Part shown: positions 8,871 to 29,477 of the stretch, in pieces
Layout: every line of letters begins with the position of its first letter
Numbering within the stretch: position 1 is the first letter of the stretch
From: an uncultured Gemmiger sp.
Lineage (GTDB): Bacteria > Bacillota > Clostridia > Oscillospirales > Ruminococcaceae
NCBI GenBank assembly: GCA_944388245.1
Contig: CALXIA010000003.1
Location: forward strand, 24,805-88,804
Direction: 5' to 3'
Length of the DNA stretch: 64,000 nt
Notes under the pieces: generated by a model
What the model saw: the letters and a program-made list of their open reading frames with translations, nothing else
Databases searched by the model: none
What the model was told of the DNA's origin: nothing
Position numbers and translations under genes: made by a program

Positions 8871-8910
8871 GCAGAGATACAATATCGACCGGGAAAGGAC
8901 GGTGGGGCGG

Positions 8911-9959: not shown

Positions 9960-9960
9960 G

Positions 9961-10956: not shown

Positions 10957-10961
10957 AATAG

Positions 10962-12145: not shown

Positions 12146-12146
12146 C

Positions 12147-13001
12147 TCACACCTCCGGCTTCTTGTCAAAGGCGGCGCGGCGCTGGCTGCTCAGCCGGAA
12201 CATCGCCTCCAGCCCCGCCGCGTCCCCCGCCGCCAGATACCCCCGCAGCTGCTCCAGCGCGGCGGTGAACTGGTCGATCTCGGCGGTCAGGTTATCCCGG
12301 TTTCGCAAAAACAACTCGCTCCACATGGTGGGATTGATCCGGGCGATCCGGGTCAGGTCCCGGAAAGAATCCCCCGTATACTCGTTCAGATGGCTGTTGT
12401 CCGACGCGCACATCAAACTCACCGCGATGGCATGGGTCAGCTGGCTCACATAGCCGATCATCCGGTCGTGCTCCTCGGGGGTGAGCACGCTCACATGGGC
12501 AAACCCCAGCGCCGCCGCCAGCCGCCGGGCAAAGGCGATCCCCTCCGGGGTATTCCGGTCGGTGGGGGTGATGATGAAGTTGGCGGGGGTGAACTCCACC
12601 AGATGGCTGCTGCGGATGCCGCTGACCTCCTTGCCCGCCATGGGATGGCAGGCGATGAACTCCACCTTGTCCCCCAGGGCCTGCTGCACCGGCTCGATCA
12701 CCCCCCGCTTGACCCCGGCCACGTCGGTGATCAGGCAGCCGGGTTTCAGCACCGGGCCGTAGGTTTTGGCCCACTCCAGCTGCGCCGCCGGGTAGAGCGC
12801 CAATACCACCACGTCCGCCTGGCCGGCCAGGTCGGCGTGTTCGCCGCAGCGGCCCTGCCGGATATAGCCCTTTTCCAGCGCAAAGGCCACGGCGGTCGGG
12901 TCGATGTCCGCCCCTTCCACGTAAAATCCCGCCCGGGCCAGCCCCATGGCGTACCGCCCGCCCAGCAGGCCCAGACCCACGATCAGAAACCGCTTTTCCA
13001 T
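12147..13001 (-). CDS. tyrA: Prephenate dehydrogenase
   Basis: Oxidatively decarboxylates prephenate to 4-hydroxyphenylpyruvate for tyrosine synthesis, in the cytoplasm. 284 residues. The N-terminal Rossmann motif is VGLGLLGGRYAMGLARAGF, with Asp residues in GADIDPTA suggesting NAD+ preference; the substrate motif IACHPMAGKEVSGIRSS lies near residue 115. There is no ACT domain, so feedback control by tyrosine through that domain is not expected. It lies 23 bases after aroA and one base before the WYL gene. Start ATG 13001 follows AAGAGGGGTGTAG. Confidence 0.94.
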   Translation of the reverse strand: MEKRFLIVGLGLLGGRYAMGLARAGFYVEGADIDPTAVAFALEKGYIRQGRCGEHADLAGQADVVVLALYPAAQLEWAKTYGPVLKPGCLITDVAGVKRGVIEPVQQALGDKVEFIACHPMAGKEVSGIRSSHLVEFTPANFIITPTDRNTPEGIAFARRLAAALGFAHVSVLTPEEHDRMIGYVSQLTHAIAVSLMCASDNSHLNEYTGDSFRDLTRIARINPTMWSELFLRNRDNLTAEIDQFTAALEQLRGYLAAGDAAGLEAMFRLSSQRRAAFDKKPEV

Positions 13002-13024
13002 CTCTACACCCCTCTTTGCTTTGC

Positions 13025-14314
13025 TTATTCCGCTTCTTCGGTCACCCGGCCGCCCAGCCCGCGCACCACATCAAAGAACGCCGGCCAGCTTTTGGCCACC
13101 GCCTCGGCCCCCCGGATGCGGGCGGGCAGGCCCGCCGCCAGGGCGGCCACCGTCAGCGCCATGACCACCCGATGGTCGTTGTGGCCCCGCAGTTCCCCCG
13201 GCGTCACCAGCGGGCCGCCGGTGATGGTCACCGTGTCGGCGGTGCTCTGGATATGCGCCCCGAACCGGCGCAGCTCCTCCTCCATGGCGGCGATCCGGTC
13301 GCTCTCCTTCAGCCGCAGCCGGCCCGCGTTGCGGATCACCGTCTGCCCCTGGCAGAAAGCCCCCAGCACCATCAGGACCGGCCCCAGGTCCGGGCAGTCG
13401 GCCAGGTCGATCTCGGTGGCGGTCAGCGGGTTTTGGGCGAAATGCACCGCGCCGTCCGCCCGCACAAACTTCGCGCCGCACCGGCGCAGGATCTCCAGAA
13501 TGGCCGCGTCGCCCTGGCGGCTGGCGGGGTTCAGCCCCTCCACGGCGATGCCGCCCAGCAGCGAGCCCAGCACCGCGAAGAACGCCCCCTGGCTGTAATC
13601 GCCCTCCACCGTGTACTCCCGGTTGTGGTACCGCTGGTTGCCGGGCACCTCCAGCCGGGCGGCCGCCCCCTCGGGCAGCTCTTCCTGGGGCACGAACCGG
13701 GCCGTGACCCCGAAATCCGCCAGCGCCGCCAGGGTCAGATCCACATAGCTGCGGCTCTCAAAGGGCGGGGTGATGGTGATGGCGCTGTCCCCCAGCATGA
13801 GCGGCAGCGCGAACAGCAGCCCGCTGATGAACTGGCTGGACACGTCCCCCGCCAGCCGGTACTCCCCCGGGCGCAGGCTGCCCTTGATCAGGATGCCGCC
13901 CTCGTTCTGGCAGAACATCCGCCCCTGCCCGGCAAAGATCTCGGCGTAGGGGCCCTGGGGCCGCTGCATCAGCCGCCCCCGGCCGCAGAACCGCACCTGC
14001 TGCCCGGTCAGGCTGCACACCGGGATCAGAAACCGCAGGGTGCTGCCGCTCTCGCCGCAGTCGATGGGGCCGCGCAGGGTGGCAAAGCCGCCCCGGCCCT
14101 CGATGTCGGCCCAGTGTTCCCGCACCTGGACCTTCGCCCCCAGCTGGCGCACCGCGTTCAGGGTGGCCTGCACGTCCTGGCTGTATTCCAGGTTGCGGAT
14201 CCGGCTCATCCCCCGGGCCAGCCCGGCGGCCAGCACCGCCCGGTGGGCCATGCTCTTGGAGGGGGGCGCGGTGACCCGGCCGGTCAGCGGCCCGGGCTGC
14301 AAAACAGCGATCAT
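13025..14314 (-). CDS. aroA: 3-phosphoshikimate 1-carboxyvinyltransferase (EPSP synthase)
   Basis: Joins shikimate-3-phosphate and phosphoenolpyruvate, sixth step to chorismate. 429 residues, usual size. Motifs: TAPPSKSMAHRAVLAAGLA (S3P-binding Lys/Ser), DCGESGSTLRFLIPVCSLTG, the catalytic-site GDYSQGAFFAVLG, and KESDRIAAMEEELRRFGA with NDHRVVMALTVAALA at the end. The phosphoenolpyruvate loop has GESGSTLRF rather than the NAGTAMR form, as in class II-like Firmicute enzymes. It is 18 bases downstream of the eighth glycosyltransferase and 23 bases before tyrA, so it is separated from the other aro genes by the 9-kb glycosyltransferase array. Confidence 0.95.
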   Translation of the reverse strand: MIAVLQPGPLTGRVTAPPSKSMAHRAVLAAGLARGMSRIRNLEYSQDVQATLNAVRQLGAKVQVREHWADIEGRGGFATLRGPIDCGESGSTLRFLIPVCSLTGQQVRFCGRGRLMQRPQGPYAEIFAGQGRMFCQNEGGILIKGSLRPGEYRLAGDVSSQFISGLLFALPLMLGDSAITITPPFESRSYVDLTLAALADFGVTARFVPQEELPEGAAARLEVPGNQRYHNREYTVEGDYSQGAFFAVLGSLLGGIAVEGLNPASRQGDAAILEILRRCGAKFVRADGAVHFAQNPLTATEIDLADCPDLGPVLMVLGAFCQGQTVIRNAGRLRLKESDRIAAMEEELRRFGAHIQSTADTVTITGGPLVTPGELRGHNDHRVVMALTVAALAAGLPARIRGAEAVAKSWPAFFDVVRGLGGRVTEEAE

Positions 14315-14332
14315 GGCGTTTTCACTTCCTTT

Positions 14333-15430
14333 TTATCGGTTCCAGTTTCCGCCCAGCAGATAGTAGCCGGCCCAGTAGAGTTTCCAGTACAGGCGCTTGG
14401 CGCCGCTCTCGTCCGAGTGGTAGACCGCCCGCACCAGGGCCGCGTTGCCCAACCGGAAGGGCCAGTAGTAGGCGTGGTAATATTTTACCCGCTTCATCCA
14501 GGCCAGGATGCGGCGGGTCTCGGGCCCCCGCAGCAGCGCCCGGGGCACCGGCTCGCCCAGCTGGTGGGCCGCCCACACCCCGAAGGCGAACCGCCGCAGA
14601 TACTGCCGGCAGATGCTGTTGGCGTCCTCCAGCGGGATGGCGGTGAAGTCCTCCACCGCCGCCAGCACCCCCGCGCACTCGGCCTGCACCCGGGCCGCGT
14701 AGCCCCGGTACGCCTCCGGGTCCCAGTCCATCTGATGGCCGGTGCCCTTCTGCTTGGAAAGGCTGCCCACGGTGGTGGTGTCCCAGAAATACAGGGGCAT
14801 GTCGGTCTGGCGGATGCAGGCCTGGGGAAACGCCTCAAAATGGGCCTTGTGGTAGGCCTCGCAGAAGGGGATGTCGTTGCTGTTGCGCAGGGTCACGTCG
14901 AACCGCACCTTGTACCGGCGGATAACCTGGGCGTGAAACAACCGGTTGTACAGGTTCCCTGATTTATACGTAACGTAATATGCCGGCCATTTGGACCGGG
15001 GGTAGACCCACTCCTGGAACGGCCGGTCCAGCTGGTCGGGGCCGGCCAGGGCGGCCAGATCGGTGACAAAATCCCACACGATCACGTCCTGGGGGTACTG
15101 GGCCTGGCGGCGCAGCGCCCACTGGATCATCAGCGGGCTGGCCGCGTCGTCCGAGTCCAGGATGAGGAAATACTCCCCCCGGGCGGCCTCGATGCCGGCG
15201 TTGCGGGCGGCGCAGGCGCCGCCGTTTTTCTGGTGGATCACCCGGATGCGGCTGTCGTGGGCGGCGTACTCGTCGCAGATGCGGCCGCTGTCGTCGGGGC
15301 TGCCGTCGTCCACCAGGATGAACTCAAAATCCGGGTCGGTCTGGGCCAGCACGCTCTCGATGAACCGGGGCAGCACCGCGGCCACCTTGTACACCGGGCT
15401 GATGACCGAAACGCGGGGTGTGGTTTCCAT
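14333..15430 (-). CDS. Family 2 glycosyltransferase, array member 8 (ED motif reads ND)
   Basis: 365 residues, no membrane segment. GT-A fold with VSVISPVYK, ILVDDGSPDDSGRICDEYA near 40-57, NGGACAARNAGIEAARGEY and the metal-binding DSDD at 92-95. The second catalytic motif, ED in seven of the eight paralogues, reads SND at 183-185, keeping Asp185 but losing the Glu. From about 270 it has the C-terminal region shared by the array: RRFAFGVWAAHQLGEPVPR, YYWPFRLGNAALVRAVY, YLLGGNWNR. It is closest to array member 7, with stretches of identity. Own ribosome binding site (GGAGGAAGCTGTA). Donor and acceptor sugars are unknown. Next downstream gene is aroA, 18 bases on. Confidence 0.88.
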   Translation of the reverse strand: METTPRVSVISPVYKVAAVLPRFIESVLAQTDPDFEFILVDDGSPDDSGRICDEYAAHDSRIRVIHQKNGGACAARNAGIEAARGEYFLILDSDDAASPLMIQWALRRQAQYPQDVIVWDFVTDLAALAGPDQLDRPFQEWVYPRSKWPAYYVTYKSGNLYNRLFHAQVIRRYKVRFDVTLRNSNDIPFCEAYHKAHFEAFPQACIRQTDMPLYFWDTTTVGSLSKQKGTGHQMDWDPEAYRGYAARVQAECAGVLAAVEDFTAIPLEDANSICRQYLRRFAFGVWAAHQLGEPVPRALLRGPETRRILAWMKRVKYYHAYYWPFRLGNAALVRAVYHSDESGAKRLYWKLYWAGYYLLGGNWNR

Positions 15431-15444
15431 TACAGCTTCCTCCT

Positions 15445-16539
15445 TTAGCGGCGGCGCCAGCTGCCGCCCAGGGCGTACCAGCCCAGCCAGTACACCTTCC
15501 AGAACAGCTTCTTGCTCTCGCTCTCATCCGACTGGTACATCGCCCGCACCAGCGGGGTGCATTGCAGCCGCAGCGGCCAGTAATAGCCGCTGTACAGCTT
15601 CTGTTTGCGCATGACGGCCAGCAGTTCCCGGATCTCGGGCCAGCGGTAGAAATCCCGGGGCACCGGCTCGCCCAGCTGGTGGGCGGCCCAGACCCCGAAC
15701 GCGAACCGCCGGCAATACTGCACGCACAGGTTCATGGCGTCCTCCGCCGGCACGGCGGCCAGCCCGCCCATGGAATCGCTCATCTGGCGGTATTCCGCCC
15801 GCAGGGTGTGCAGGTAGCCCCGGCTTTCCTCCGGGTCCCACTCGATGGGATGGGCGGCCACCGCCTTTTTGCTGGCCCGGGCGGCCCCGTTGTCGTTGTG
15901 GACGATGTAGAGGGGCAGGTCGTACTGGCGCACGATGGCCTGCGGCCGGGCGGCGAAGAAGGCGTGGAAGTAGGCGATGCAGAACTGCATGTCCTCCCCC
16001 CGGGCCTGGCCCACCGGGTAGCGCACCTCGCCCTGGCGGATGAGGGCCGCGTCAAACAGCTTGTTGGTCACGTTGGCGCTGGGGATGGTGAAGATATAGG
16101 CCTGCAGCTGGGCTTTTGTGTACCGCTTGCAGGGGGGGTGAACAAGATCCGGGGCGGTGGCGGTCTGGTCGTGCAGCACCCAGCCGATCAGGTCGCCCGG
16201 GTGGCGGGCCTGCCGCTCCAGCGCCCAGGCCGCGGTCTCGGGCAGGATGGTGTCGTCCCCGTCCACGAACAGGAAATAGGGCGCGCGGGCGGCGGCCATA
16301 CCAGCGTTGCGGGCGGCGGAGACCCCGCCGTTTTCCTGGTGCAGCACCCGGAACCGGGGGTCCTGTTCGGCCCATTGGCGGCAGACCGCCAGGCTGCCGT
16401 CGGCCGAGCCGTCGTCCACCAGCACGCACTCCCAGTCCGGGGTGGTCTGGGCGGCGATGGAGGCCAGGCACCGGGGCAGCAGCGCTTCCAGGTTGTACAC
16501 CGGCACAATGATGCTGACGGCGGGGGTTTCACGGGACAT
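15445..16539 (-). CDS. Family 2 glycosyltransferase, array member 7
   Basis: 364 residues. GT-A motifs: VSIIVPVYNLEALLPRCLAS, CVLVDDGSADGSLAVC, NGGVSAARNAGMAAARAPYF, DGDD at 93-96, and GED with Glu182-Asp183. The region before ED is shorter and different from members 1-6 (no WNKLF; VTNKLF instead). The C-terminal shared region reads CRRFAFGVWAAHQLGEPVPR, YYWPLRLQCTPLVRAMY and ALGGSWRRR. Clearly the sister of member 8. The start at ATG 16539 follows AAAGGAGAGG; an upstream open extension to 16710 overlaps member 6 and is not used. No signal peptide, so it acts on a cytoplasmic, probably lipid-linked or nascent glycan acceptor (inference). Confidence 0.88.
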   Translation of the reverse strand: MSRETPAVSIIVPVYNLEALLPRCLASIAAQTTPDWECVLVDDGSADGSLAVCRQWAEQDPRFRVLHQENGGVSAARNAGMAAARAPYFLFVDGDDTILPETAAWALERQARHPGDLIGWVLHDQTATAPDLVHPPCKRYTKAQLQAYIFTIPSANVTNKLFDAALIRQGEVRYPVGQARGEDMQFCIAYFHAFFAARPQAIVRQYDLPLYIVHNDNGAARASKKAVAAHPIEWDPEESRGYLHTLRAEYRQMSDSMGGLAAVPAEDAMNLCVQYCRRFAFGVWAAHQLGEPVPRDFYRWPEIRELLAVMRKQKLYSGYYWPLRLQCTPLVRAMYQSDESESKKLFWKVYWLGWYALGGSWRRR

Positions 16540-16552
16540 CGCAACCTCTCCT

Positions 16553-17683
16553 TTACAGGGTATCGGGGCGCTTCCAGCGGTTCGCCCCCTCGATGTAGTA
16601 GAACAGCCAGTCGAAATGGCCGAAGTTCGGATGCTGCAGCTGGCTCCACACATACATCCGCCGGGCCATCCACCGCCAGCGCAGCCGCAGCGGCAGGTAG
16701 TAGGCCACATGCACCCGGTTGCGCCGGCACCAGGCCAGCAGATTCCGCAGCCGCTCGTCCCGCCAGAAGCCCCGGGGCAGCGGCTCGCCCAGCCGGGCGG
16801 CGCACCACAGCCCGTAGCACACGCCCCGCAGATAGTGGTGCATGAAGGGGAACACCTGTTCCGGCGTCATCTCCCACAGCCCCGGCACCCGGGCGGCCTT
16901 CTCCGCCAGCTCGGCCAGCAGCCCGGCCAGATAGCCCGGCTGCGGCTCATCCAGCTGCGCGCCGTGCGCCGCGTTGCGCTGCACCATGGTGCGGATGATG
17001 GAATCGGTGGTGTTGAGGGTGTGGCAGTACAGCGGCACCGGCAGGTAGGCGATCAGCGGGTCGGCGGGCAGGCAGGCCATATACCGGCGCACAAAATCCA
17101 CGTCCTCGCCGCCGCTGGTGCGGGCCCAGCCCAGTTCCGGGTCGAACCGCAGGCCGTGGCGGCGGATCCGGTCGGCCTCGAACAGCTTGTTCCAGGCGTG
17201 CACAAACAGCATGCTGATGTTGCCGCTGTAATGGGTGATCTCCATCTGGCTGCGGGGCAGCGCCTGCACCTGGTAATCATCCTGCTGGTGGCGGGCCCAC
17301 TCCTCCGGGGAGCGGCTGCTGTTCCAGATCACCAGCGCCGCGGGGTGTTCCCGCTGCGCCCGCAGCGCGTACTCCAGTTCCCGGGGGGCGATCCGGTCGT
17401 CCGCGTCCAGAAAGACGATATACCCTCCGCGGGCCTGGTCCATCCCCGCGTTGCGGGCGCGGGAAAGGCCGCCGTTGGCCTGGTGGATCACCCGGAACCG
17501 GCCGTCGGCCTGTGCGATCTCGTCGCAGAGCGCGCCGGTGCCGTCGGCAGAGCCGTCGTCCACCAGCACGCACTCCCAGTCCGGGAAGGTCTGGGCGCGC
17601 ACACTGTCCGCGCAGTCCCGCAGCCAGCGTTCGGCGTTATAGGCCGGCACGATGACCGTGACGGCGGGGGTCGGCTGGTTCAT
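16553..17683 (-). CDS. Family 2 glycosyltransferase, array member 6
   Basis: 376 residues. VTVIVPAYNAERWLRDCADS, CVLVDDGSADGTGALCDEIA, NGGLSRARNAGMDQARGGYI, DADD at 93-96, AWNKLFEADRIRRHGLRFDP and GGED with Glu193-Asp194. The shared C-terminal region is present as RGVCYGLWCAARLGEPLPR and YYLPLRLRWRWMARRMY but the extreme end differs from its neighbours (FGHFDWLFYYIEGANRWKR), resembling member 1 more than members 7-8. The start at 17683 (MNQPTP) follows CAAGGAGGATGCCGC. Array position between members 5 and 7 with 24- and 13-base gaps. Confidence 0.87.
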   Translation of the reverse strand: MNQPTPAVTVIVPAYNAERWLRDCADSVRAQTFPDWECVLVDDGSADGTGALCDEIAQADGRFRVIHQANGGLSRARNAGMDQARGGYIVFLDADDRIAPRELEYALRAQREHPAALVIWNSSRSPEEWARHQQDDYQVQALPRSQMEITHYSGNISMLFVHAWNKLFEADRIRRHGLRFDPELGWARTSGGEDVDFVRRYMACLPADPLIAYLPVPLYCHTLNTTDSIIRTMVQRNAAHGAQLDEPQPGYLAGLLAELAEKAARVPGLWEMTPEQVFPFMHHYLRGVCYGLWCAARLGEPLPRGFWRDERLRNLLAWCRRNRVHVAYYLPLRLRWRWMARRMYVWSQLQHPNFGHFDWLFYYIEGANRWKRPDTL

Positions 17684-17707
17684 GCGGCATCCTCCTTGCG
17701 GCAAGAT

Positions 17708-18814
17708 TCAGGACCACCGGCCGCCGATCAGCAGCTTCTGCAGCAGGGCCAGCCGGTAGTACCAGGCGTTTTGGGCGTTGTCCCAGCCGTACATCGCGGC
17801 CACCAGCGCCGCGCTGCCCAGCCGGAAGGGCAGGTAGTAGGGGGTGTAGCGCCGGCGGGCCAGCAGCCCGTCCAGCAGGGTCCTGACCTCGGGGCCGCGG
17901 ATGTAGCCGGCGGGCAGGGTCTCGCCCAGTTCCCGGGCGCACCAGGCCCCGTAGGCCAGGCAGCGCAGGTAATGGCGGATGGTCACATAGCCCATCTGGG
18001 GCTGCGCGAACAGGTCGGCGTACTCCACCAGGTTCTGCCGCAGCTCGGCCAGGATCCGCGCCGCGTAGCCCGGCTCGGGCCGGTCGGCCTCCCGCTTGAA
18101 CTGGCCGTAGCGGGCCTCGTAGCGGGTGACCAGCGACTGGGGATTGTCCATCTCGTGGTAGTAGCGGGGCACCGGCAGATAGGTGTAGAGCCGGGGCTTG
18201 TCCGAGAAGAAGTTCTCCTGGTACTGCTGAAAGAACACCTCGTCCTCGCTCAGGTTGTGTTCGTAGCCCAGTTCCTTGTCGAACCGCATCCCGAACTTCT
18301 TCACGCAGCCGGCCTGGAACAGCTTGTTCCACACCTGCACCCCCTGGCCCTTGGAGGCGAACATCATCTGCACCTCCAGCCCCCGCATGAGGGTCTCGGC
18401 AAAGGGCTCGGCGGCCCGGCGGGCCAGCTCGGCCTGGTCCAGGGTCAGGTCCCACATGACCAGCCGGTCCGGGTGGGCCAGCTGGCTGCGCATGGCGTAC
18501 TCGATGAGATGGGCCTCGATGGCGTCGTCCGCGTCCACGAAGAACAGGTACAGCCCCACCGCCGCGTCCAGCCCGGCGTTGCGGGCGGTGGACACCCCGC
18601 CGTTTTCCTTGTGGATCACCCGCACCCGGGGGTCCTTTCCGGCGTAGGAATCGCAGATGGCGCCGCAGCCGTCCGGGCTGCCGTCCTCCACCAAAATGAG
18701 TTCAAAGTCCGGCCAGGTCTGGGCCAGGATGCTGTCCACGCACCGGGGCAGGAACTTCTCGCAGTTCCACACCGGCACGATCACCGAGACCAGCGGGGTC
18801 TGTTCCGATTGCAT
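17708..18814 (-). CDS. Family 2 glycosyltransferase, array member 5
   Basis: 368 residues. VSVIVPVWNCEKFLPRCVDS, LILVEDGSPDGCGAICDSYA, NGGVSTARNAGLDAAVGLYL, DADD at 94-97, VWNKLFQAGCVKKFGMRFDK and SED with Glu190-Asp191. The shared C-terminal region: RCLAYGAWCARELGETLP, YYLPFRLGSAALVAAMY and LLIGGRWS. Start ATG 18814 with GCAAGGAGGGAGCCCC. Likely cytoplasmic; processive synthase features (QXXRW) are absent, so it should add a single sugar. Confidence 0.88.
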   Translation of the reverse strand: MQSEQTPLVSVIVPVWNCEKFLPRCVDSILAQTWPDFELILVEDGSPDGCGAICDSYAGKDPRVRVIHKENGGVSTARNAGLDAAVGLYLFFVDADDAIEAHLIEYAMRSQLAHPDRLVMWDLTLDQAELARRAAEPFAETLMRGLEVQMMFASKGQGVQVWNKLFQAGCVKKFGMRFDKELGYEHNLSEDEVFFQQYQENFFSDKPRLYTYLPVPRYYHEMDNPQSLVTRYEARYGQFKREADRPEPGYAARILAELRQNLVEYADLFAQPQMGYVTIRHYLRCLAYGAWCARELGETLPAGYIRGPEVRTLLDGLLARRRYTPYYLPFRLGSAALVAAMYGWDNAQNAWYYRLALLQKLLIGGRWS

Positions 18815-18838
18815 GGGGCTCCCTCCTTGCGGGCAGAA

Positions 18839-19942
18839 TCAGGCCTTCCAGCCGGGGCCGGGCAGCAGACGCAGCGCCGCCTGGACCCGGTAGAACCAGG
18901 GGCTGCGGGTGCGCTCGGCGTAGAACAGCCGGGCGATCAGGCCGGGCCGTTTCCAGCAAAACGGCCAGTAAAACACGTAGTAGCGATGGGTGGCGGCGCA
19001 GGTCTCCAGGCACCAGCGCACCGCCGGCCAGCAAAAGAAGTCGGCCGGCAGCCGCTCGCCCAATTCCCGGGCGCTCCACACCCCGTAGGCGAAGCAGTGC
19101 AGATAGTGCAGGGCGGTGGGAAACGCCTGTTCGCCGGAAAAAAAGTCCGGAAAGGCGGCCATCCGCCGCTCGAACTCCCGGTTGAGGGTGTGAACGTAGC
19201 CCGCCTCGGGCACCTCGTCCATCTCGGCGCGGGGGGCGGGGGCGGCCTTTTTCAGGTTGGTCATGATGGAGTGGGGATTGTCCCGCCGGTAGAAGTAGAG
19301 GGGCTCGTCCAGGTAGCGGAAACCCTGGTCCGGCCCGGCCAGGAACAGCTGCATATACCGGGTGGAGAAGAGCGCGTCCTCCCCGGGGGCGTTTTTGCGC
19401 CCGTCCGGGTCCACGAAGGAGAAGCCGTGCTCGGTGAGGATGTCCCGGCGGAACAGCTTGGTGTTGACCCCGGTGTGCAGGGCGATCTGCAGAAAGATCA
19501 GCTGCATCTCGTCCTGGGTGCAGCGCCGGTGGGTCCGGGGCATGCCGGGCAGGGCCTGGAACTCCTGCCAGTCGCTGGTGGAGCGCCAGATGGTCAGGTC
19601 CCGGGGGAACTGTTTCTGGGTGGTGAGGGCGGCTTCCAGCAGGCAGGGGGCCATGGCGTCGTCCGCGTCGAAGAAGTAGACCCACGGGGTATCGGCGGCG
19701 GCCAGGCCGGCGTTGCGGGCGCTGGAGGCCCCGCCGTTTTCCTTGTGGATCACCGAAAAGCGGCTGTCCCGGGCGGCCCACTCGTCGCAGACCGGGCCGC
19801 TGCCGTCGGTGGAGCCGTCGTCCACCAGCACGCACCGCCAGCCCGGGAAGGTCTGGGCTTCGATGGACGCCAGGCAGACCGGCAGAAATTCGCCGGCGTT
19901 CCACACCGGCACCACGATGGTCAGTTCAGGGGCGTTTGGCAT
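18839..19942 (-). CDS. Family 2 glycosyltransferase, array member 4
   Basis: 367 residues. LTIVVPVWNAGEFLPVCLAS, CVLVDDGSTDGSGPVCDEWA, NGGASSARNAGLAAADTPWV, DADD at 92-95, and PGED with Glu188-Asp189 preceded by an atypical VNTKLFRRDIL where most paralogues have WNKLF. C-terminal shared region: HCFAYGVWSARELGERLP, FYWPFCWKRPGLIARLFY (the R of the YYLPxR motif is changed to CW-K), LLPGPGWKA. Start ATG 19942 follows ATAAGGAGGACACCC; a longer frame up to 20284 runs inside member 3 and is rejected. Confidence 0.88.
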   Translation of the reverse strand: MPNAPELTIVVPVWNAGEFLPVCLASIEAQTFPGWRCVLVDDGSTDGSGPVCDEWAARDSRFSVIHKENGGASSARNAGLAAADTPWVYFFDADDAMAPCLLEAALTTQKQFPRDLTIWRSTSDWQEFQALPGMPRTHRRCTQDEMQLIFLQIALHTGVNTKLFRRDILTEHGFSFVDPDGRKNAPGEDALFSTRYMQLFLAGPDQGFRYLDEPLYFYRRDNPHSIMTNLKKAAPAPRAEMDEVPEAGYVHTLNREFERRMAAFPDFFSGEQAFPTALHYLHCFAYGVWSARELGERLPADFFCWPAVRWCLETCAATHRYYVFYWPFCWKRPGLIARLFYAERTRSPWFYRVQAALRLLPGPGWKA

Positions 19943-19953
19943 GGGTGTCCTCC

Positions 19954-21057: not shown

Positions 21058-21072
21058 GGCCAACTTCCTTTC

Positions 21073-22182
21073 TTATTCCCCGGCGTTTTTCTTCCAGCCG
21101 GGCAGCAGCAGGCGGAACAGCCGGCAGGCCCAGAAGAAGGGGGCCTGCTTGAGTTCGTCCCACTGGTAGAGCCGGGCCGCGAACCGCCAGGCCCGCAGCC
21201 GGTAGGGCAGGTAGTAGGGGTTGAAGATCCGGTTGTGTTTCCACCAATCCAGCAGTTCGGCCAGTTCGGGGCCGTCGGTCAGCGGCCGGGGCAGCCCCTC
21301 GCCCAGCTGTTCCGCGCACCAGAGCCCGAAGGCGAAGCACCGGGTATAGTGCCGCGCGAAGGCGATGGATTCCAGCGGGGGGATGTCGGTCAGGCGGGGC
21401 GGCATCTCGGTGCGCACCGACCGGTACTCCTTCAGGATGAAGTCCGCGTAGGCGGGCTCCGGGTCGGGCAGGGTCAGTTCCAGGCGCTGGGTGGCGGTGC
21501 GGGTGATGCTGGTGCGGTTGTCCGGATAGTGGAAGTAGCGGGGGGTGGCGGCGTAGACCATGGGGGGCGAACCCTCCGGCCAGCGGGCGGCCAGGTACTG
21601 TTCCATGAACAGCTTGTCCTCCCCCAGGTTGTCCCGCTTGCCCAATGTCTCGTCAAACCGCAGCCCCGCCGCGCGCACCGCGGCGGTCTGGAACAGCTTG
21701 TTCCAGATGGTCACGAAGATGGACCCGCAGGGATGCCGGCGCAGCATGGAGGCCCCGTCGGTCAGCTCGTACTCCAGCGGCTTTTCGGCCGCGGCGGCGA
21801 AATCGGCCGCGTCCCGGGTGTAGCCCCACATGACCAGCCGGTCGGGATAGGCGGTCTGCATGGCCACGGCGTACTCCAGGCTGTGGGGGTCCATGGCGTC
21901 GTCCTGGTCGCAGAAGGTGAACCACTCGCCCCGCAGCACCGCCAGCGCCGCGTTGCGGGCGCTGGACACCCCGCCGTTCTCCTTGTCCACCAGCCGGAAC
22001 CGGGGATCCTGTTCCGCCAGCGCCGCGCAGATCGCCCGGCTGCCGTCGGTGGAGCCGTCGTTGACCATGACGCACTCAAAGTTCGGATAGGTCTGCGCCC
22101 GCAGGCTGCCCAGGCTGCGTTCCAGCCAGGCTTCGCCGTTGTACACCGGCAGGATCACGCTGACCAGCGGCTGCTCGTTCAT
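21073..22182 (-). CDS. Family 2 glycosyltransferase, array member 2
   Basis: 369 residues. VSVILPVYNGEAWLERSLGS, CVMVNDGSTDGSRAIC, NGGVSSARNAALAVLRGEWF, DQDD at 92-95, IWNKLFQTAAVRAAGLRFDE and LGED with Glu188-Asp189, then NRTSITRTATQR. Shared C-terminal region: RCFAFGLWCAEQLGEGLPR, YYLPYRLRAWRFAARLY, LLLPGWKKNAGE. Start ATG 22182 with AAATGAGGTGAACACCC. The 22-base gap to member 1 and 15-base gap to member 3 show a tight operon. Donor sugar cannot be deduced. Confidence 0.88.
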   Translation of the reverse strand: MNEQPLVSVILPVYNGEAWLERSLGSLRAQTYPNFECVMVNDGSTDGSRAICAALAEQDPRFRLVDKENGGVSSARNAALAVLRGEWFTFCDQDDAMDPHSLEYAVAMQTAYPDRLVMWGYTRDAADFAAAAEKPLEYELTDGASMLRRHPCGSIFVTIWNKLFQTAAVRAAGLRFDETLGKRDNLGEDKLFMEQYLAARWPEGSPPMVYAATPRYFHYPDNRTSITRTATQRLELTLPDPEPAYADFILKEYRSVRTEMPPRLTDIPPLESIAFARHYTRCFAFGLWCAEQLGEGLPRPLTDGPELAELLDWWKHNRIFNPYYLPYRLRAWRFAARLYQWDELKQAPFFWACRLFRLLLPGWKKNAGE

Positions 22183-22204
22183 GGGTGTTCACCTCATTTT
22201 TGGC

Positions 22205-23395
22205 TTATCGTTTCCAGTTTCCGCCCAGCAGGTAGTACAGGCCCCAGTCCCACCGGCCGAAGGCCCGGCTGTGGGTGGCGTCCCGGTAGTAGAGCCTGGC
22301 GGCCAGGGCCGGGCAGTGCCAGCGCAGCGGCAGGTAGTAGGGGGAGTAGCGCCGGCGCTGTTTGCACCAGGCCAGCGCCCCGGCCAGGCCCGGGTGGGCC
22401 CACAGCCCGGCGGGCAGGGCCACGCCGGCGGCGCGGCAGGCCCAGATGCCGTAGGCCAGGCTGCGCAGCACGCTCAGGTGCAGCCCGGCGGTCTTGTGCT
22501 CGTCGCCGCCGTAGATCCAGTCCAGCTTCGCGTCCCGGGCGTAGTCGTCCAGCAAGGTCCGGCAGTAGGCGGCCGGGTCGGGGGGCGGGATCAGCTGCTC
22601 GTTGGCCTCGTCGGCCATGGCGGCGTTCTCCCCGGCCACCCGCACCTCGATGTGCCGGGTGATGGCGTCGGTGTTGGTGCAGTCGTAGTAGTACAGATCG
22701 TTGCCGGTGTAGGCGATGGCCTGGGCGGGGGAGGGGTCCAGCGCCAGGCGCATGTACCGGTCCACATAGTCCCGGTCCTCCCCGTACCACTGGCCGTCCG
22801 GGTCGATGCGGTACTGGTCCTTGTCGGGGCGGATGGTCTCGTCGAACCACAGATCCCGCTGCGCCAGCAGCCGCCGGTCGAACAGCTTGTTCCAGGCGGT
22901 GAAGTACAGGTTGCGCCGGATCATGAGCCGGTCGATCTGGCCCCGGGGCAGGCAGACCGCCGCCAGCGGCTTGTCGAAGCCCGCCTCAAAGGCGGCGTGG
23001 TCGCCGGTGTACTCCCAGATCACAAAGGCCCCGGGGTACTGGCCGGCCATCTCCAGGCCGTATTCCAGGGTGTGGGGGGCCAATTCGTCGTCGCAGTCCG
23101 GGATGACCACCCAGCGGCCCCGGGCGGCGGCCAGCCCCGCGTTGCGGGCGCTGGAGGCCCCGCCGTTTTTCTTGTGGATGGCCTTGAAGCGGGGGTCCTT
23201 GGCGGCCCATTCGTCGCACACCTTGCCGGAATCGTCCGGGGATTCGTCGTCCACCAGGATGCACTCCCAGTCCGGCATGGTCTGGGCGGCCACCGACCGG
23301 CACAGGCGGTTCAGCCACTCGCCCTTGTACACCGCCACCACCACGCTCACGGCGGGGGCGTCTTCGGCAAAGGGCTGCCAGCTGCGGTTTGGCAT
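22205..23395 (-). CDS. Family 2 glycosyltransferase, array member 1
   Basis: 396 residues, the longest of the array. VSVVVAVYKGEWLNRLCRSV, CILVDDESPDDSGKVCDEWA (Glu instead of Gly after DD), NGGASSARNAGLAAARGRWV, DCDD at 100-103, AWNKLFDRRLLAQRDLWFDE, an extra ~15-residue insertion, then YGED with Glu206-Asp207. Shared C-terminal region: RSLAYGIWACRAAGVALP, YYLPLRWHCPALAARLYY, LLGGNWKR. Start ATG 23395 (MPNRSW) is served by AAGGAG that overlaps the aroF stop; GTG 23404 is too close. It is the junction gene between the chorismate genes and the array. Confidence 0.88.
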   Translation of the reverse strand: MPNRSWQPFAEDAPAVSVVVAVYKGEWLNRLCRSVAAQTMPDWECILVDDESPDDSGKVCDEWAAKDPRFKAIHKKNGGASSARNAGLAAARGRWVVIPDCDDELAPHTLEYGLEMAGQYPGAFVIWEYTGDHAAFEAGFDKPLAAVCLPRGQIDRLMIRRNLYFTAWNKLFDRRLLAQRDLWFDETIRPDKDQYRIDPDGQWYGEDRDYVDRYMRLALDPSPAQAIAYTGNDLYYYDCTNTDAITRHIEVRVAGENAAMADEANEQLIPPPDPAAYCRTLLDDYARDAKLDWIYGGDEHKTAGLHLSVLRSLAYGIWACRAAGVALPAGLWAHPGLAGALAWCKQRRRYSPYYLPLRWHCPALAARLYYRDATHSRAFGRWDWGLYYLLGGNWKR

Positions 23396-23407
23396 GGTAT
23401 CCACTCC

Positions 23408-24424
23408 TTACAGGTCCCGGCCCACCACATGGGCGATGGCCCGGCATTTTTCGATCACCTGGCGGAACTTGTCCGGTTTCAGGCTCTGGGCGCCGTCGCT
23501 CCAGGCGTTCTGGGGATCGTTGTGCACCTCGATGATCAGGCCGTCCGCCCCGGCGGCCACCGCCGCCAGGCTCATGGCCTCCACATACCGCCAGTTGCCG
23601 GTGGCGTGGCTGGGGTCGATGATGATGGGCAGATGGGTCTTTTCCTTGATGATGGGGATGACCGACAGATCCAGGGTGTTGCGGGTGTAGGGTTCGAAGG
23701 TGCGGATGCCCCGCTCGCAGAAGATCACGTTCTCGTTGCCGCCGGCCATGATGTACTCGGCGCTCATGATCCACTCCTCGATGGTGTTGGCCAGGCCCCG
23801 CTTGAGCAGCACCGGCTTGTGCATTTTGCCCACCGCCTTGAGCAGCGGGAAGTTCTGCATGTTGCGCGCGCCGATCTGCACCAGGTCCACGTACTGCTCA
23901 AACTCCTCGATCCTGTCCTCGCTCATCAGCTCGCTGACGATGGGCAGGCCGGTGATCTCCCGGGCCTTGACCAGATCCAGGATGCCCTCGGTCCCCAGGC
24001 CCTGGAAGGCGTAGGGGGAGGTGCGGGGCTTGTAGGCGCCGCCCCGCAGCATGGCGCCGCCGGCGGCCTTGACGGCCTGGGCGATCTCCACCACCTGGCT
24101 CTCGCACTCCACGCTGCAGGGGCCGCCGATGACGCAGATCTTCTCCTGGCCGCCGATCTTGACCCCGTTCACGTCCACGATGGTGTCGGCCTCGTGGAAC
24201 AGCCGGTTGGCCTTTTTGTAGGGGGCGGAAACGCGGGTGACGCTCTCCACCCAGGGGTTGGCGGCCACCTGTTTCTCGTTGACCTTGGTGGTGTCGCCCA
24301 CGATGCCGAAGACGTTGTAGTCGGTGCCGCGGATGAGGGTGACCGACAGGCCCTGGGCCTCAAACCCGGCGATAATCTTCTGAATTTCCGATTGGGGGGT
24401 GCCCCGTTTGGTTGAAATGATCAT
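23408..24424 (-). CDS. aroF: 3-deoxy-7-phosphoheptulonate (DAHP) synthase, AroF/type I-beta
   Basis: First step of the shikimate pathway: phosphoenolpyruvate plus erythrose-4-phosphate. 338 residues, with an N-terminal ferredoxin-like regulatory domain (residues ~1-70, MIISTKRGTPQSEIQ to ESVTRVSAPYK) as in Thermotoga-type enzymes that respond to Tyr/Phe, then a TIM barrel: CVIGGPCSVECESQ, GGAYKPRTSPYAFQGLG, PVLLKRGLANTIEEW, IIDPSHATGNW (metal-binding His). It overlaps aroQ by four bases (ATGA) and precedes the first glycosyltransferase by 12 bases. Confidence 0.95.
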   Translation of the reverse strand: MIISTKRGTPQSEIQKIIAGFEAQGLSVTLIRGTDYNVFGIVGDTTKVNEKQVAANPWVESVTRVSAPYKKANRLFHEADTIVDVNGVKIGGQEKICVIGGPCSVECESQVVEIAQAVKAAGGAMLRGGAYKPRTSPYAFQGLGTEGILDLVKAREITGLPIVSELMSEDRIEEFEQYVDLVQIGARNMQNFPLLKAVGKMHKPVLLKRGLANTIEEWIMSAEYIMAGGNENVIFCERGIRTFEPYTRNTLDLSVIPIIKEKTHLPIIIDPSHATGNWRYVEAMSLAAVAAGADGLIIEVHNDPQNAWSDGAQSLKPDKFRQVIEKCRAIAHVVGRDL

Positions 24425-24873
24425 TGTGGCATGGTTCCTTTCCCGGTGATGATTTGCTGCAAAAAGCGGGCCGCGTTCACATAGCCCTCGATGCCCTGGC
24501 CCACGAAATGGCCCTGACAGGCCATGCCGGCGTAGCTGATCTGGCGGAAGGGTTCCCGCTGGGTCACGTCGCTGATGTGCACCTCGGCGGCGGGCAGCGC
24601 CACCGCCTTGAGGGCGTCCAGAATGGCGATGCTGGTGTGGGTGTAGGCCCCCGGATTGATCACGATGCCGTCGGCGTATTGCAGCGCGTCCTGGATCGCG
24701 TCCACCAGATCCCCCTCGTGGTTGGACTGATAAAATTCGGTCTCGATGCCCAGCGCCTCGCAGCAGCGGGCCACATACTCCACCATGGTGTTGTAGTCCA
24801 CCGTGCCGTAGATGCCCGGTTCCCGGATGCCCAGCATATTCAGGTTGGGTCCGTTCAAAATCAGCAGTTTCAT
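24421..24873 (-). CDS. aroQ: Type II 3-dehydroquinate dehydratase
   Basis: Third step of the pathway. 150 residues, dodecameric type II family. Motifs: LILNGPNLNMLGIREPGIYG (catalytic Tyr in IYG), EFYQSNHEGDLVDAIQDA, IVINPGAYTHTSIAILDAL and EVHISDVTQREPFR (catalytic His). The segment SYAGMACQGHFVGQGIEGY replaces the more usual SVIADVCVGQIIGFG form but keeps the glycines. Overlaps aroC upstream and aroF downstream by four bases each, so translation is coupled. Confidence 0.95.
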   Translation of the reverse strand: MKLLILNGPNLNMLGIREPGIYGTVDYNTMVEYVARCCEALGIETEFYQSNHEGDLVDAIQDALQYADGIVINPGAYTHTSIAILDALKAVALPAAEVHISDVTQREPFRQISYAGMACQGHFVGQGIEGYVNAARFLQQIITGKGTMPQ

Positions 24874-25994
24874 ACTTCGCTTCCTTTCTGCTGCCAGGCC
24901 AGCCCGGCGCTCTGGGTCAGCAGGTCCAGAAGGCCCAGCGCCACCATGCTGTCCTGCACCACCCGGGCCCGGGGCAGGATGCAGGGATCGTGCCGGCCCT
25001 TGAGCTGCAGGGTGGCCGCCTGGCCGGTGGCCAGGTCCACCGTGGCCTGTTCCTTGAAGATGCTGGCGGTGGGTTTGATGACGGTGCTCAGCACCAGCGG
25101 CATCCCGTTGGAGATGCCCCCGTTGACCCCGCCGTTGTGGTTGGAGCTGGTGATGATCCGCCCGTTCCAGGGCAGGAAGGGGTCGTTGGCCTGGCTGCCC
25201 CGCATGTCCGCCATGGCGAACCCGCTGCCGAACTCCACCCCCTTGACCGCCGGGATGCTGAACAACAGATGGCTCAACACGCTCTCCACGCTGTCAAAGA
25301 AGGGTTCGCCCACCCCGGCGGGCAGGCCCAGCACCGCGGTCTCCAGCACGCCGCCCACGCTGTCCCGGTCGGCGGCGGCGGCCTTGATGGCCTGGCGCAT
25401 GGGCTCCTCAAAGGCGGCGTCCAGCACCGGCAGGCCGTCGGTGCGCGCGTCCAGGATATCCAGCTGGCGGGCCAGCCGGTCCGGCTCGGCGGCGAAGCGG
25501 CTGCCCTCGATGCCGGCACAGCGGATGATGTGGGTGCCCACCCGGATCCCGTGGGCGGCCAGCACCCCCAGGCAGAGCGCCCCGGCGGCCACCACCGCCG
25601 CGGTGACCCGGCCGGAGAAATGCCCGCCGCCGCGCCCGTCCTGCCAGCCGCCGTACTTGACCTGGGCGGTGTAGTCCGCGTGGCCGGGGCGGGGCAGGGT
25701 GGCCAGCGCCGCGTAGTCCTGGCTGCGGGTGTTGGTATTCCCGAGCACAAACGCGATGGCGGTGCCGGTGGTGTGCCCCTTGTACACCCCGCTCAAAAAC
25801 CGCACCCGGTCCGGTTCCACCCGGGCGGTGGTGAGCCCGTCCCCCCGGGCGCGGCGCTTGTCCATCTGGCGGGCGATGAACGCCTCGTCCACCGGCAGGC
25901 CGGCGGCCAGGCCGTGCAGCACACCGCCCACCGCCGGGCCGTGGCTCTCCCCGAACACCGTCAGATTCACGGCGTTGCCGAAACTGTCCCTCAT
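24870..25994 (-). CDS. aroC: Chorismate synthase
   Basis: Last step of the shikimate pathway, FMN-dependent 1,4-elimination of phosphate from EPSP. 374 residues. Signatures: GESHGPAVGGVLHGLAAGLP, RGDGLTTARVEPDRV, GHTTGTAIAFVLGN, YGGWQDGRGGGHFSGRVTAA and SNHNGGVNGGISNGMPLV. Overlaps aroQ by four bases; 28 bases downstream of aroB. Confidence 0.96.
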   Translation of the reverse strand: MRDSFGNAVNLTVFGESHGPAVGGVLHGLAAGLPVDEAFIARQMDKRRARGDGLTTARVEPDRVRFLSGVYKGHTTGTAIAFVLGNTNTRSQDYAALATLPRPGHADYTAQVKYGGWQDGRGGGHFSGRVTAAVVAAGALCLGVLAAHGIRVGTHIIRCAGIEGSRFAAEPDRLARQLDILDARTDGLPVLDAAFEEPMRQAIKAAAADRDSVGGVLETAVLGLPAGVGEPFFDSVESVLSHLLFSIPAVKGVEFGSGFAMADMRGSQANDPFLPWNGRIITSSNHNGGVNGGISNGMPLVLSTVIKPTASIFKEQATVDLATGQAATLQLKGRHDPCILPRARVVQDSMVALGLLDLLTQSAGLAWQQKGSEV

Positions 25995-26022
25995 ATACGA
26001 TTCCCCCTTGTTGTTACTCCCC

Positions 26023-27051
26023 TCAGGCCTTGTCCAGGCCCACCAGCTTGTCCAGCTGTTCCAGCGGCACCTTGTCCAGCCGCCAGCAGCCCAGCCCCGG
26101 CACCTTGACCAGGGTCACCTGGCCGTTGCGGGCCTTTTTGTCGTGCCGCATATAGCCCAGCACCTGCTGCTTGTTGTAGCTGGCCCGGGCGGGCAGGCCC
26201 AGCTTCCGGTAGACCGCCCGCACCCGCTTTTGCAGCTGCCTGTCCTCGATCATGGGCAGCATCCCCAGCGCCACGCACTCCCCGTGGAAGTACCCCTTGG
26301 TGCGCCGGCCCTTGATGCCCCGCACCGCCTCGATGCCGTGGCCCAGGGTGTGGCCGAAGTTCAGCGCCGCCCGGGCGCCCTGCTCGGTCTCGTCCTGCTC
26401 CACGATCTTCTTTTTCACCAGCAGGCTGCGGTAGATGATGGTCTCGATGTCCTTGTCCACGTCCCCGTTCTCAAACAGCAAAAACAGCTCCGGGTCGCAG
26501 ATCAGCCCCGCCTTGACCGCCTCGGCCAGGCCGTTGATGTAGTGGCGGCGGGGCAGGGTGGCCAGGGTGTCCGGGTCGATGACCACAAGTTTGGGCTGCC
26601 AGAAGGCCCCCACGATGTTCTTGGCGTCCCCCAGGTCCACGGCCACCTTGCCGCCGATGGAGGAGTCGATCTGGGACAGGGTGGTGGTGGGGCAGTTGAT
26701 GAAGTCCACCCCGCGCATGAAGGTGGCGGCCACAAAGCCGGCCAGATCCCCCACCACGCCGCCGCCCACGGCGATGACCACGCCGCTGCGGTCCAGCCCG
26801 GCGTCCAGAGCGGCCTGCATCAGCTGGCCGTAGACCTTCAGGCTCTTGCTGCCCTCCCCCTGGGGCACGGTGGCGATGGCGCCCTTGGGGCACTGGGCGG
26901 CCACCCGCCGGGCGTATTCGGCGGGCACGCCGCTGTCGGTGACGATGAGGGCCGGCCGGTCCAGCCAGGCCAGCTGACTCAGGTTGTCCAGCGCGCCGCG
27001 CTTGAGGATGATGTCGTAGCTGCGCGGGCCCAGACGCATGGAAAGTTTCAT
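26023..27051 (-). CDS. aroB: 3-dehydroquinate synthase
   Basis: Second step of the pathway, NAD+- and metal-dependent cyclisation of DAHP. 342 residues, a little short for the family but complete. GEGSKSLKVYGQLMQAALD, AVGGGVVGDLAGFVAATFMRG, PTTTLSQIDSSIGGKVAVDL, and metal ligands in GLAEAVKAGLICD, NFGHTLGHGIEAV and YFHGECVALGM. Overlaps pheA by four bases. Confidence 0.96.
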   Translation of the reverse strand: MKLSMRLGPRSYDIILKRGALDNLSQLAWLDRPALIVTDSGVPAEYARRVAAQCPKGAIATVPQGEGSKSLKVYGQLMQAALDAGLDRSGVVIAVGGGVVGDLAGFVAATFMRGVDFINCPTTTLSQIDSSIGGKVAVDLGDAKNIVGAFWQPKLVVIDPDTLATLPRRHYINGLAEAVKAGLICDPELFLLFENGDVDKDIETIIYRSLLVKKKIVEQDETEQGARAALNFGHTLGHGIEAVRGIKGRRTKGYFHGECVALGMLPMIEDRQLQKRVRAVYRKLGLPARASYNKQQVLGYMRHDKKARNGQVTLVKVPGLGCWRLDKVPLEQLDKLVGLDKA

Positions 27052-28130
27052 ACGGTTTCTCCTTTTCGGGTATAGATGCCCAGCACCCGCACGGTGCGGC
27101 AGACGCTCTCCAGCCCGGCCAGCAGGCGCTTGGCGTCCGGGGCGTCGGCGGCGCCCACCAGTTCCACATAAAAATAGTATTCAAAGGGCACATGGGGCAT
27201 GGGGCGGCTCTTGATGCACTCCATATTGAAGCCCGCGGCCGCGATGGCCTGGATCACCCGGGCCAGCGCCCCGGTCTTGTGGTCCACCGTGAACAGCAGG
27301 CTGAACCGGTTGCCCCGTTTGGGCAGCTCTTTGCCCACCACGATGAACCGGGTGGTGTTGTCCCCGTCGGTGTTGACGTCCCGCATCAGCACCTGCAGGC
27401 CGTAGAGTTCGGCGGTGTCGGCGCTGGCGATGGCGGCCAGGGCCTTGTCGCCGGCCTCGGCCACCCGGCGGGCGGCCAGGGCGGTGTTGGCGCAGCTCTC
27501 GGCCGCCAGGCCCATGCTGCGGATGAACCGCTCGCACTGGCTCAGCGCCTGGGGATGGCTGATCACCCGGCGCAGGTCCCCCAGGGTGGCCCCCGGCACC
27601 GCCAGCAGGTTCTGGGTCACCGGCAGATCGTACATCTCCACGATGTGCAGCCGCCGGGCATAGCACAGATCCAGCACCGCGGCCACGTCCCCGGCGTGGC
27701 TGTTTTCAAAGGGCAGCACCCCATACGCGGCGCTGCCCTGTTCCACCCGGTCGAACACGTCGCCCCAGGTGGGGCAGGCCATCGCCTTCGCCTGGGGGAA
27801 CAGCCGGGTCAGGGCGATGTGGGCAAACGCCCCTTCCACCCCCTGGTAGGCCACCGTGTCCCGCCCCAGCGCGTGGGCCTGGTACTGGCGGGACACCGCC
27901 ATCGCGGCCTGCTGAAACTCCTGGTAATAGGGCCGCAGCGCCGCGTCCCGGATGCGGGCGGTGTTCTGTTCAATGACCTGCTGTTCCCGGCTGGCGTCCA
28001 GCACCGGGATGTCGTGTTCCTGTTTGTAGGCGGCCACCCGGGCCACCTGCGCCATCCGCGCCTCGAACAGCGCCGCCATCTGGCCGTCGATCTCGTCGAT
28101 GGCGCGGCGGGCGCTCTCCAGTTCCTCCAT
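27048..28130 (-). CDS. pheA: Bifunctional chorismate mutase / prephenate dehydratase
   Basis: Converts chorismate to prephenate and then phenylpyruvate. 360 residues: AroQ-type chorismate mutase at 1-90 (RRAIDEIDGQMAALFEARMA), prephenate dehydratase at ~95-270 (YQGVEGAFAHIALTRLFP, PFENSHAGDV, NTTRFIVVG), and a C-terminal ACT domain at ~280-355 with the phenylalanine-binding CIKSRP motif, so feedback inhibition by Phe is expected. The ATG at 28130 follows GGGGAGGG; first gene of the operon, about 70 bases after a good promoter. No T-box or peptide leader fits in that leader. Confidence 0.95.
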   Translation of the reverse strand: MEELESARRAIDEIDGQMAALFEARMAQVARVAAYKQEHDIPVLDASREQQVIEQNTARIRDAALRPYYQEFQQAAMAVSRQYQAHALGRDTVAYQGVEGAFAHIALTRLFPQAKAMACPTWGDVFDRVEQGSAAYGVLPFENSHAGDVAAVLDLCYARRLHIVEMYDLPVTQNLLAVPGATLGDLRRVISHPQALSQCERFIRSMGLAAESCANTALAARRVAEAGDKALAAIASADTAELYGLQVLMRDVNTDGDNTTRFIVVGKELPKRGNRFSLLFTVDHKTGALARVIQAIAAAGFNMECIKSRPMPHVPFEYYFYVELVGAADAPDAKRLLAGLESVCRTVRVLGIYTRKGETV

Positions 28131-28203
28131 GGCAAACCCTCCCCTTGCCGCCCGAAACCGGGCGGGCCGGCTCTCGCCGTTTTTGATTCGCTTTAACTGA
28201 TTA

Positions 28204-28232
28204 AGTATACCATAGTCCGTACCCCGGGGCAA
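28204..28232 (-). promoter_or_regulatory. Promoter of the aro-glycosyltransferase operon
   Basis: On the minus strand TTGCCC (28227-28232), 17 bases, TATACT (28204-28209). The leader to the pheA ATG is short and contains a GCCCGCCCG / CGGGCGGC hairpin just before the ribosome binding site, which might limit translation. Confidence 0.8.
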
Positions 28233-28480
28233 CCGGTTTCGGCCCCTCGGGCGGGAATTTTACCGCCCGGCCGCGTGCGGACGAGCGTGAACGAGCGCGG
28301 CTGCGCGCGGAGGAGATTCCGCACCGCCGCCGGAACGCCGGGGCCCGCCGCCGCCCGCCAGGGGCCGGGGCCGGGTTTGCGGAGCGGGGCGGGTTTCTGG
28401 TATGATAGTCCCATAGCAGCTGCACCGCCGCGGGCACAACGGCCCCGGCGGGACACTCACAAACAGAAAAGGAGAAAACG
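28233..28480. other. Divergent intergenic region pheA/hflK
   Basis: About 250 very GC-rich bases. Apart from the pheA promoter at one end and a probable hflK promoter at the other (TTGCGG, 18 bases, TATGAT at 28401-28406) I see no coding signal, structured RNA or repeat of the two families. Confidence 0.6.
28377..28406 (+). promoter_or_regulatory. Probable hflKC promoter
   Basis: TTGCGG (28377-28382), 18 bases, TATGAT (28401-28406), about 75 bases upstream of the hflK ATG. The -35 is weak. Confidence 0.5.
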
Positions 28481-29476: not shown

Positions 29477-29477
29477 G

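Follow-up and report, generated by a model that had tools for sequence, protein, structure and literature searches.

The window analysed here is a stretch of 64,000 nucleotides from an uncultured Gemmiger sp. (positions 24,805 to 88,804 of contig CALXIA010000003.1). It lies within contig C3 of a genome (G000) of 1.97 Mb in 64 contigs that is 75% complete. On its minus strand sixteen genes follow one another in the order pheA-aroB-aroC-aroQ-aroF, eight genes for glycosyltransferases (GTs) of the GT2 type, aroA, tyrA and a gene for a WYL regulator. Our subject is the array of eight GTs and the junction between aroF and aroA in which it lies. The GTs are numbered GT1 to GT8 from aroF to aroA (GT2 being both a slot and the name of the family), and were compared with those of three congeners: Gemmiger sp. 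An120 (G001, NZ_NFLN01000014.1), which we take to be an isolate, and two uncultured Gemmiger (G002 and G003). These four species make up our sample of the genus, called g1; other genera, such as g58, are numbered in the same way. The features of the locus are as follows.

28204-28232, minus strand: predicted sigma-70-like promoter, TTGCCC-17-TATACT with TG before the second hexamer (consensus match only)
27048-28130, minus strand: pheA, chorismate mutase / prephenate dehydratase, 360 amino acids (NCBIfam)
26023-27051, minus strand: aroB, 3-dehydroquinate synthase (NCBIfam, 302 bits against a cut-off of 305)
24870-25994, minus strand: aroC, chorismate synthase (NCBIfam, over cut-off)
24421-24873, minus strand: aroQ, type II 3-dehydroquinase, 150 amino acids (named by reading the sequence, not by family search)
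23408-24424, minus strand: aroF, DAHP synthase, left anchor of the GT slot (NCBIfam, over cut-off)
22205-23395, minus strand: GT1, GT2-type (PF00535); ortholog at the locus in G001, none in G002 or G003
21073-22182, minus strand: GT2 (PF00535); orthologs in all four species
19954-21063, minus strand: GT3 (PF00535); ortholog at the locus in G001, none in G002 or G003
18839-19942, minus strand: GT4 (PF00535); orthologs in all four species
17708-18814, minus strand: GT5 (PF00535); orthologs in all four species; AlphaFold2 model with a predicted local distance difference test score (pLDDT) of 93.5
16553-17683, minus strand: GT6, the variable slot; the species share its C-terminal domain, whereas the N-terminal and central parts have been replaced
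15445-16539, minus strand: GT7; orthologs in all four species; sister to slot 2 of genus g58
14333-15430, minus strand: GT8; orthologs in all four species; a GT8-like tail ends the extra aroA-side GT of G001 and G002
13025-14314, minus strand: aroA, EPSP synthase, right anchor of the GT slot (NCBIfam, over cut-off)
12147-13001, minus strand: tyrA, prephenate dehydrogenase (right best NCBIfam models, below their cut-offs)
11117-12145, minus strand: WYL/WCX-domain transcriptional regulator, the last gene (domain match)
11037-11073, minus strand: predicted intrinsic terminator with a 16-pair stem, behind WYL

All fifteen reading frames from pheA to tyrA are intact, as is that of WYL, and the intergenic distances from pheA to WYL range from -4 (three times) to 28 bases. 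This agrees with a preliminary description of the DNA, which had reported a tight gene order on one strand with gaps of at most 28 bases and four-base overlaps. Start codons are the best candidates, those of GT1, GT4, GT7 and WYL having been corrected by reading. The NCBIfam cut-offs are exceeded by AroC, AroF, AroA and the chorismate-mutase domain of PheA; for AroB, TyrA and the prephenate dehydratase part of PheA the best-scoring models are the right ones, but the scores stay below cut-off. A scan of positions 10800-28500 on both strands returned the promoter already proposed at 28204-28232 as the sole sigma-70-like match, which is weak alone against the mean of 1.6 expected by chance, and 16 terminator-like sites where a mean of 9.0 was expected. 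The preliminary description had seen no internal terminator: the strong stem does lie only behind WYL, but four minus-strand sites with short stems (5-6 pairs) are found inside the operon. Its gene order holds through WYL, but the left limit of the operon is at about 11037, beyond the 12147 given there. From these sequences a single transcript from pheA to WYL is predicted. A chimeric assembly, the caveat raised with that description, is unlikely because three other assemblies (G001, G002 and G003) hold the same arrangement.

A search for AroF in 396 genomes, an even sample of the family, revealed a close homolog in 61 of them. We read the locus in the window and in 56 more (G192, G248, G325 and G395 were left out). 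Four of these 56 loci (L033, L041, L063 and L083) have no readable junction, and the remaining 52 give, with the window, 53 aroF-aroA junctions that cover all sampled genomes of g1 (4), g58 (5) and g12 (2). GTs are present in 10 of the 53 junctions. The preliminary description had left to comparison whether relatives free of the array have aroF next to aroA: they do, as the other 43 junctions have no GT, and the empty junction is the common state. By genus, GTs occupy the junction in 4/4 genomes of g1, 5/5 of g58 and 1/2 of g12. Their number is 8 in the window, 9 in G001, 7 in G002 and 6 in G003; outside g1 it is 4 in each of G274, G153, G221 and G318, and 1 in both G060 and G131. The flanks are constant and the content between them varies from 0 to 9 GTs. 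Within the genus, GT1 and GT3 are found only in G000 and G001, a distribution that cuts across the species tree. Seven more distant loci have other gene orders and no GT, and a scan of named genomes gave the three Gemmiger congeners only, plus four distant GT2 matches in other phyla. In genus g18 (L053, L054 and L030), terminator-like hairpins can be seen by eye in the aroF-aroA gap, which may be a transcript boundary.

The eight GTs all match PF00535 (glycosyltransferase family GT2) with 94-130 bits (cut-off 23.3) and keep the motif D-x-DD, whose three aspartates are invariant across 57 aligned sequences. For three of them NCBIfam equivalogs were compared, and none was over its cut-off. The model of GT5 has a GT-A fold plus a C-terminal helical domain, and its closest solved structures in Foldseek are the Fap1 transferase CgT (the best match in the PDB), TarP, TarS and RmlT. 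The architecture predicted for GT5 probably holds for all eight enzymes, which are likely to act in the cytoplasm. Another GT that matches the profile of the array is cut by a contig end elsewhere in the genome (G000:C28:29242-29424, L026).

In a tree of 71 GTs, each of GT1 to GT8 forms a separate clade on a long stem, and the seven other paralogs are 29-49% identical to GT8; a recent tandem burst was rejected on these grounds. A recent foreign origin was rejected because the GC content of the GTs, overall and at third codon positions (GC3), is within or close to the range of the aro genes. In this tree GT7 and slot 2 of g58 are sisters (support 100/96), as are the aroA-side GT of G002 and the one GT of G131 (100/100). 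The tree of the aro genes (FastTree, 47 of the 57 genomes) places g1 beside g20, g58 and g25, with g12 elsewhere; g20, represented by one genome that has no GTs, is sister to g58. Between species, the ratio of nonsynonymous to synonymous substitutions (dN/dS) is 0.08-0.34 in GT1-5, 7 and 8 (with GT1 and GT3 taken from two of the four species), against 0.03-0.32 in six aro genes; pheA and WYL were outside this test and the site-pattern test described below. Judged by these divergences, the cassette is old and seven of its slots are under purifying selection like the aro genes. The idea of the preliminary description that an expanding cassette was inserted can be kept in part: there is a cassette of 1 to 9 GTs where most relatives have none, but its old orthologous slots, their long stems and their dN/dS values show that it is not recent. 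Change is concentrated in GT6, in the aroA-side slot and in the presence or absence of GT1 and GT3.

The site-pattern test covered 12 genes in the four species (GT1, GT3 and the aroA-side GT being also outside it); of the 12, all but GT6 support the pairing of G000 with G003 and of G001 with G002. To the left of codon 300 in GT6, 160 of 182 informative sites support G000+G002 and G001+G003, contradicting the species tree, which is supported to the right of this codon by 11 of 14 informative sites. None of 2000 permutations gave as extreme a break, and among the other 11 genes there is a weak one in GT4 (15/2000) and none in the remaining ten. The GT6 proteins of G001 and G002 are 48% identical in the N-terminal part and 38% in the middle, 91% in the C-terminal part and 95% in the tail. 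For comparison, the seven conserved slots are 69-96% identical over the first three segments between G000 and G001, with 81-89% in the middle, for which reason we rejected the explanation that the middle of these GTs evolves fast everywhere. An extra GT stands before aroA in G001 and G002. The two copies are 82% identical over the N-terminal part (first 100 residues), 25% in the middle, 29% in the C-terminal part and 66% in the tail, and their 22-residue tails are 90% (G001) and 66% (G002) identical to that of GT8. In g58, the comparison of G318 with G221 gives identities of 64/32/83% for the N-terminal, middle and C-terminal parts of slot 1 and 77/43/69% for those of slot 4; slot 1 varies among the other species of this genus too. 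The single GT of G060 joins the start of slot 1 to the body of slot 3, and is 95% identical to G318 over the 60 bases before the gene and 83% over the first 60.

Members of the same full-length family that reach E 1e-60 occur in genera g1, g58, g12, g20, g25 and g52; 10 genomes that represent eight other genera have none. The window genome and the seven compared with it carry members immediately ahead of Wzm/Wzt, in a polysaccharide export locus where other GTs are present too. Seven of these eight genomes (G000 and six of those compared) have two such members; the eighth, G022, whose aro operon is free of GTs, has six in a row before Wzm (L102 12159-19801). The Wzm/Wzt exporter of the window genome is on another contig than the array. 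These sequence relations suggest that the array most likely diversifies a surface polysaccharide exported by an ATP-binding cassette (ABC) transporter, with the aro operon as its expression site and recombination anchor. Overall, we consider it probable that surface-polysaccharide GTs of one family came to occupy the aroF-aroA junction and are varied there by recombination. One or a few GT2 genes of the kind adjacent to Wzm/Wzt would have entered the junction before g1 and g58 split, or have passed between them; the trees suggest that they then duplicated and are now kept as separate conserved slots. Each enzyme would probably add one sugar to a polysaccharide assembled and exported by the distant locus. 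The aro operon would supply transcription, and its conserved flanks, together with the similar ends of the paralogs, may serve as the anchor for homologous recombination. Exchanges between paralogs or with related species would delete, add and rebuild members. In GT6, whose breakpoint is shown above, and apparently in two slots of g58, the similar ends would be kept and the central segment replaced, which would change the choice of sugar or acceptor. More tentatively, and with some doubt on our side, the junction could be a domain-swap site for GTs, where homologous recombination among gut species would exchange a central segment that sets specificity and leave the slot-specific ends as they are. 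The C-terminal helical domain may then dock the enzymes in a complex, and the position upstream of aroA and tyrA on one transcript would keep the array open because polar mutations would cost aromatic amino acids.

Several points weigh against a recombining site for surface-polysaccharide GTs. The variation was compared between species, with one genome for each. The patterns in g58 resemble that of GT6 by look and rest on segment identities, which rapid change of the middle could also produce. The GTs of the aro operon and those of the polysaccharide locus are not cleanly separated in the 71-row tree, where the starred branches force at least two changes. A tree of 44 rows does separate them, with weak support (80/43; 85% of bootstrap trees) and with 27 rows left out (3 of the outgroup, the long row G014cps_8311 and, for thinning, those of G003, G274 and G221 and most of those of G002). 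The presence of GTs in g58, when the one genome of its sister g20 and the six of g25 lack them, calls for losses or transfer; one gain with later losses and transfer between genera are both possible as the origin of the array. From aroF to aroA there are only GT2 genes, with no exporter, polymerase or initiating transferase. The link between the array and the Wzm/Wzt locus consists of family resemblance and co-occurrence, and the roles of the enzymes, the glycan and the transcript are predicted. Finally, GT6 could result from the loss of alternate members of an older tandem pair and a C-terminal crossover.

The last point can be extended to the aroA-side GT, and would replace the import of foreign segments by differential loss of old tandem paralogs with unequal crossover. 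We regard this as quite possible, without thinking it probable. The four GT6 proteins form one clade (100/99) and the slot-1/slot-3 hybrid of G060 shows that crossover happens inside such an array, yet none of the four genomes of the genus has two GT6 types side by side. The place of the array might also be a neutral accident, the GTs having landed in a tolerant operon junction where their position is without meaning. A genus-limited, patchy distribution would fit such an accident, as would the short gaps that let the GTs ride on the operon. It is nevertheless doubtful, since the nine sampled species of g1 and g58 all keep their GTs at exactly aroF-aroA (as does one of two in g12), and the dN/dS values of the GTs show that the enzymes matter, though not that the place does.

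The structural matches to CgT, TarP, TarS and RmlT would agree with GTs that glycosylate proteins or another wall polymer, such as a serine-rich adhesin or teichoic acid. We think this unlikely. PF04464 (TagF/TagB-type, a teichoic-acid polymerase) and Asp1 (PF16993, accessory Sec) are absent from the six genomes of g1, g58 and g20 that were searched, which include the incomplete window genome and four that are 98-99% complete; the controls were positive in 3/14 and 1/14, respectively. Their absence led us to reject PF04464-dependent teichoic acid and a serine-rich adhesin as targets, and bears neither on other glycoproteins nor on wall polymers made without PF04464. Because both are absent and family members lie before Wzm/Wzt, an exported surface polysaccharide is favoured as the target of the array. 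Shared regulation of the operon might couple glycan synthesis to the supply of aromatic amino acids, a tie to aromatic supply that the preliminary description had suggested. This would suit the single predicted transcript and the arrangement kept in 4/4 sampled species of the genus, but is very improbable: across 141,243 bases (the window with the leader, and four related loci) no Rfam family (T-box, riboswitch or leader) scored as high as its gathering threshold, by which a known aromatic-acid riboswitch or T-box was rejected; the leader folds no better than shuffled sequences (z = -0.09); GT content differs between species while the aro genes stay, 43 junctions having none; other members of the GT family belong to the polysaccharide export locus; and WYL is not specific to the array because it is also present behind tyrA in several GT-free relatives. 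A regulatory link of this kind is not needed for a junction varied by recombination.

Variable glycan loci with constant flanks are known, and one of them is the pneumococcal cps locus, which sits between dexB and aliA. It is described, in passages of PMC5850285, as a glycan locus whose content is varied by recombination, a trait that it shares with the junction studied here, as it does constant flanking genes. The two differ in that the flanks are here genes of the shikimate operon, on whose transcript the cassette appears to lie, that GT2 paralogs make up the whole content, genes for an exporter, a polymerase or a regulator being absent, and that the variation is between species. In the Fap1 glycosylation cluster several transferases act in sequence (passages of PMC5207161 and PMC5063993), and the latter source reports, for CgT, a GT-A domain with a helical domain needed for oligomerisation. 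The likeness lies in the match of CgT to GT5 and in the clustering of several transferases; the difference is that the Fap1 system acts on a serine-rich adhesin and that Asp1 is missing here. We know of no placement of the Fap1 cluster in a metabolic operon. TarP, TarS and RmlT share the GT-A fold and rank high in Foldseek, but are 16-20% identical to the GT5 model with whole-chain root-mean-square deviations of 8-12 Å, and the genomes searched lack the PF04464 polymerase. The GTs before Wzm/Wzt (L025, L095, L097-L102) are of the same full-length family and also vary in number (2 to 6), but they belong to a polysaccharide export locus, whereas the array stands alone among aro genes. The titles and abstracts found in a literature search describe no GT2-only array of paralogs in a chorismate operon with swapped central segments. 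Loci of glycan variation are usually sought as self-contained clusters with exporter and polymerase, and an array in a core metabolic operon would be missed. In the genus that includes Gemmiger sp. An120, closely related species differ in the number of paralogous GTs and in the central parts of these enzymes but share an otherwise constant operon. They form a natural series in which one could ask what part of a GT2 enzyme determines the choice of sugar and acceptor, and how gut commensals change their surface. The junction looks like a place where the surface sugars of the cell are varied.

The aro operon has also changed in another place. The preliminary description rightly noted that aroE and aroK are not in the window. 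They form one fused gene outside the operon (G000:C18:25623-26846), likewise found elsewhere in the three congeners; their absence from the window therefore does not break the pathway. Four bases (24870-24873) are shared by aroC and aroQ in the window genus. Relatives commonly have some 0.8-1.5 kb of DNA between aroC and the aro gene that follows. By reading, this interval holds a gene starting as aroE in L029, L032, L036, L028, L033 and L083, fused to aroK in the first four of these. In the window genus the aroE-aroK fusion no longer lies in the operon. G000:C8:35573-36577 encodes another DAHP synthase, which shares 57% identity with aroF. On the far side of pheA lie two genes in the opposite direction (window 28481-30356), the first encoding a Band_7/SPFH protein and the second, by reading, a similar one. 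At the other end of the operon a plus-strand gene group (window 8902-10956) converges on WYL; its first gene is PadR-like by reading, and it ends in a gene for a DUF4097 protein.

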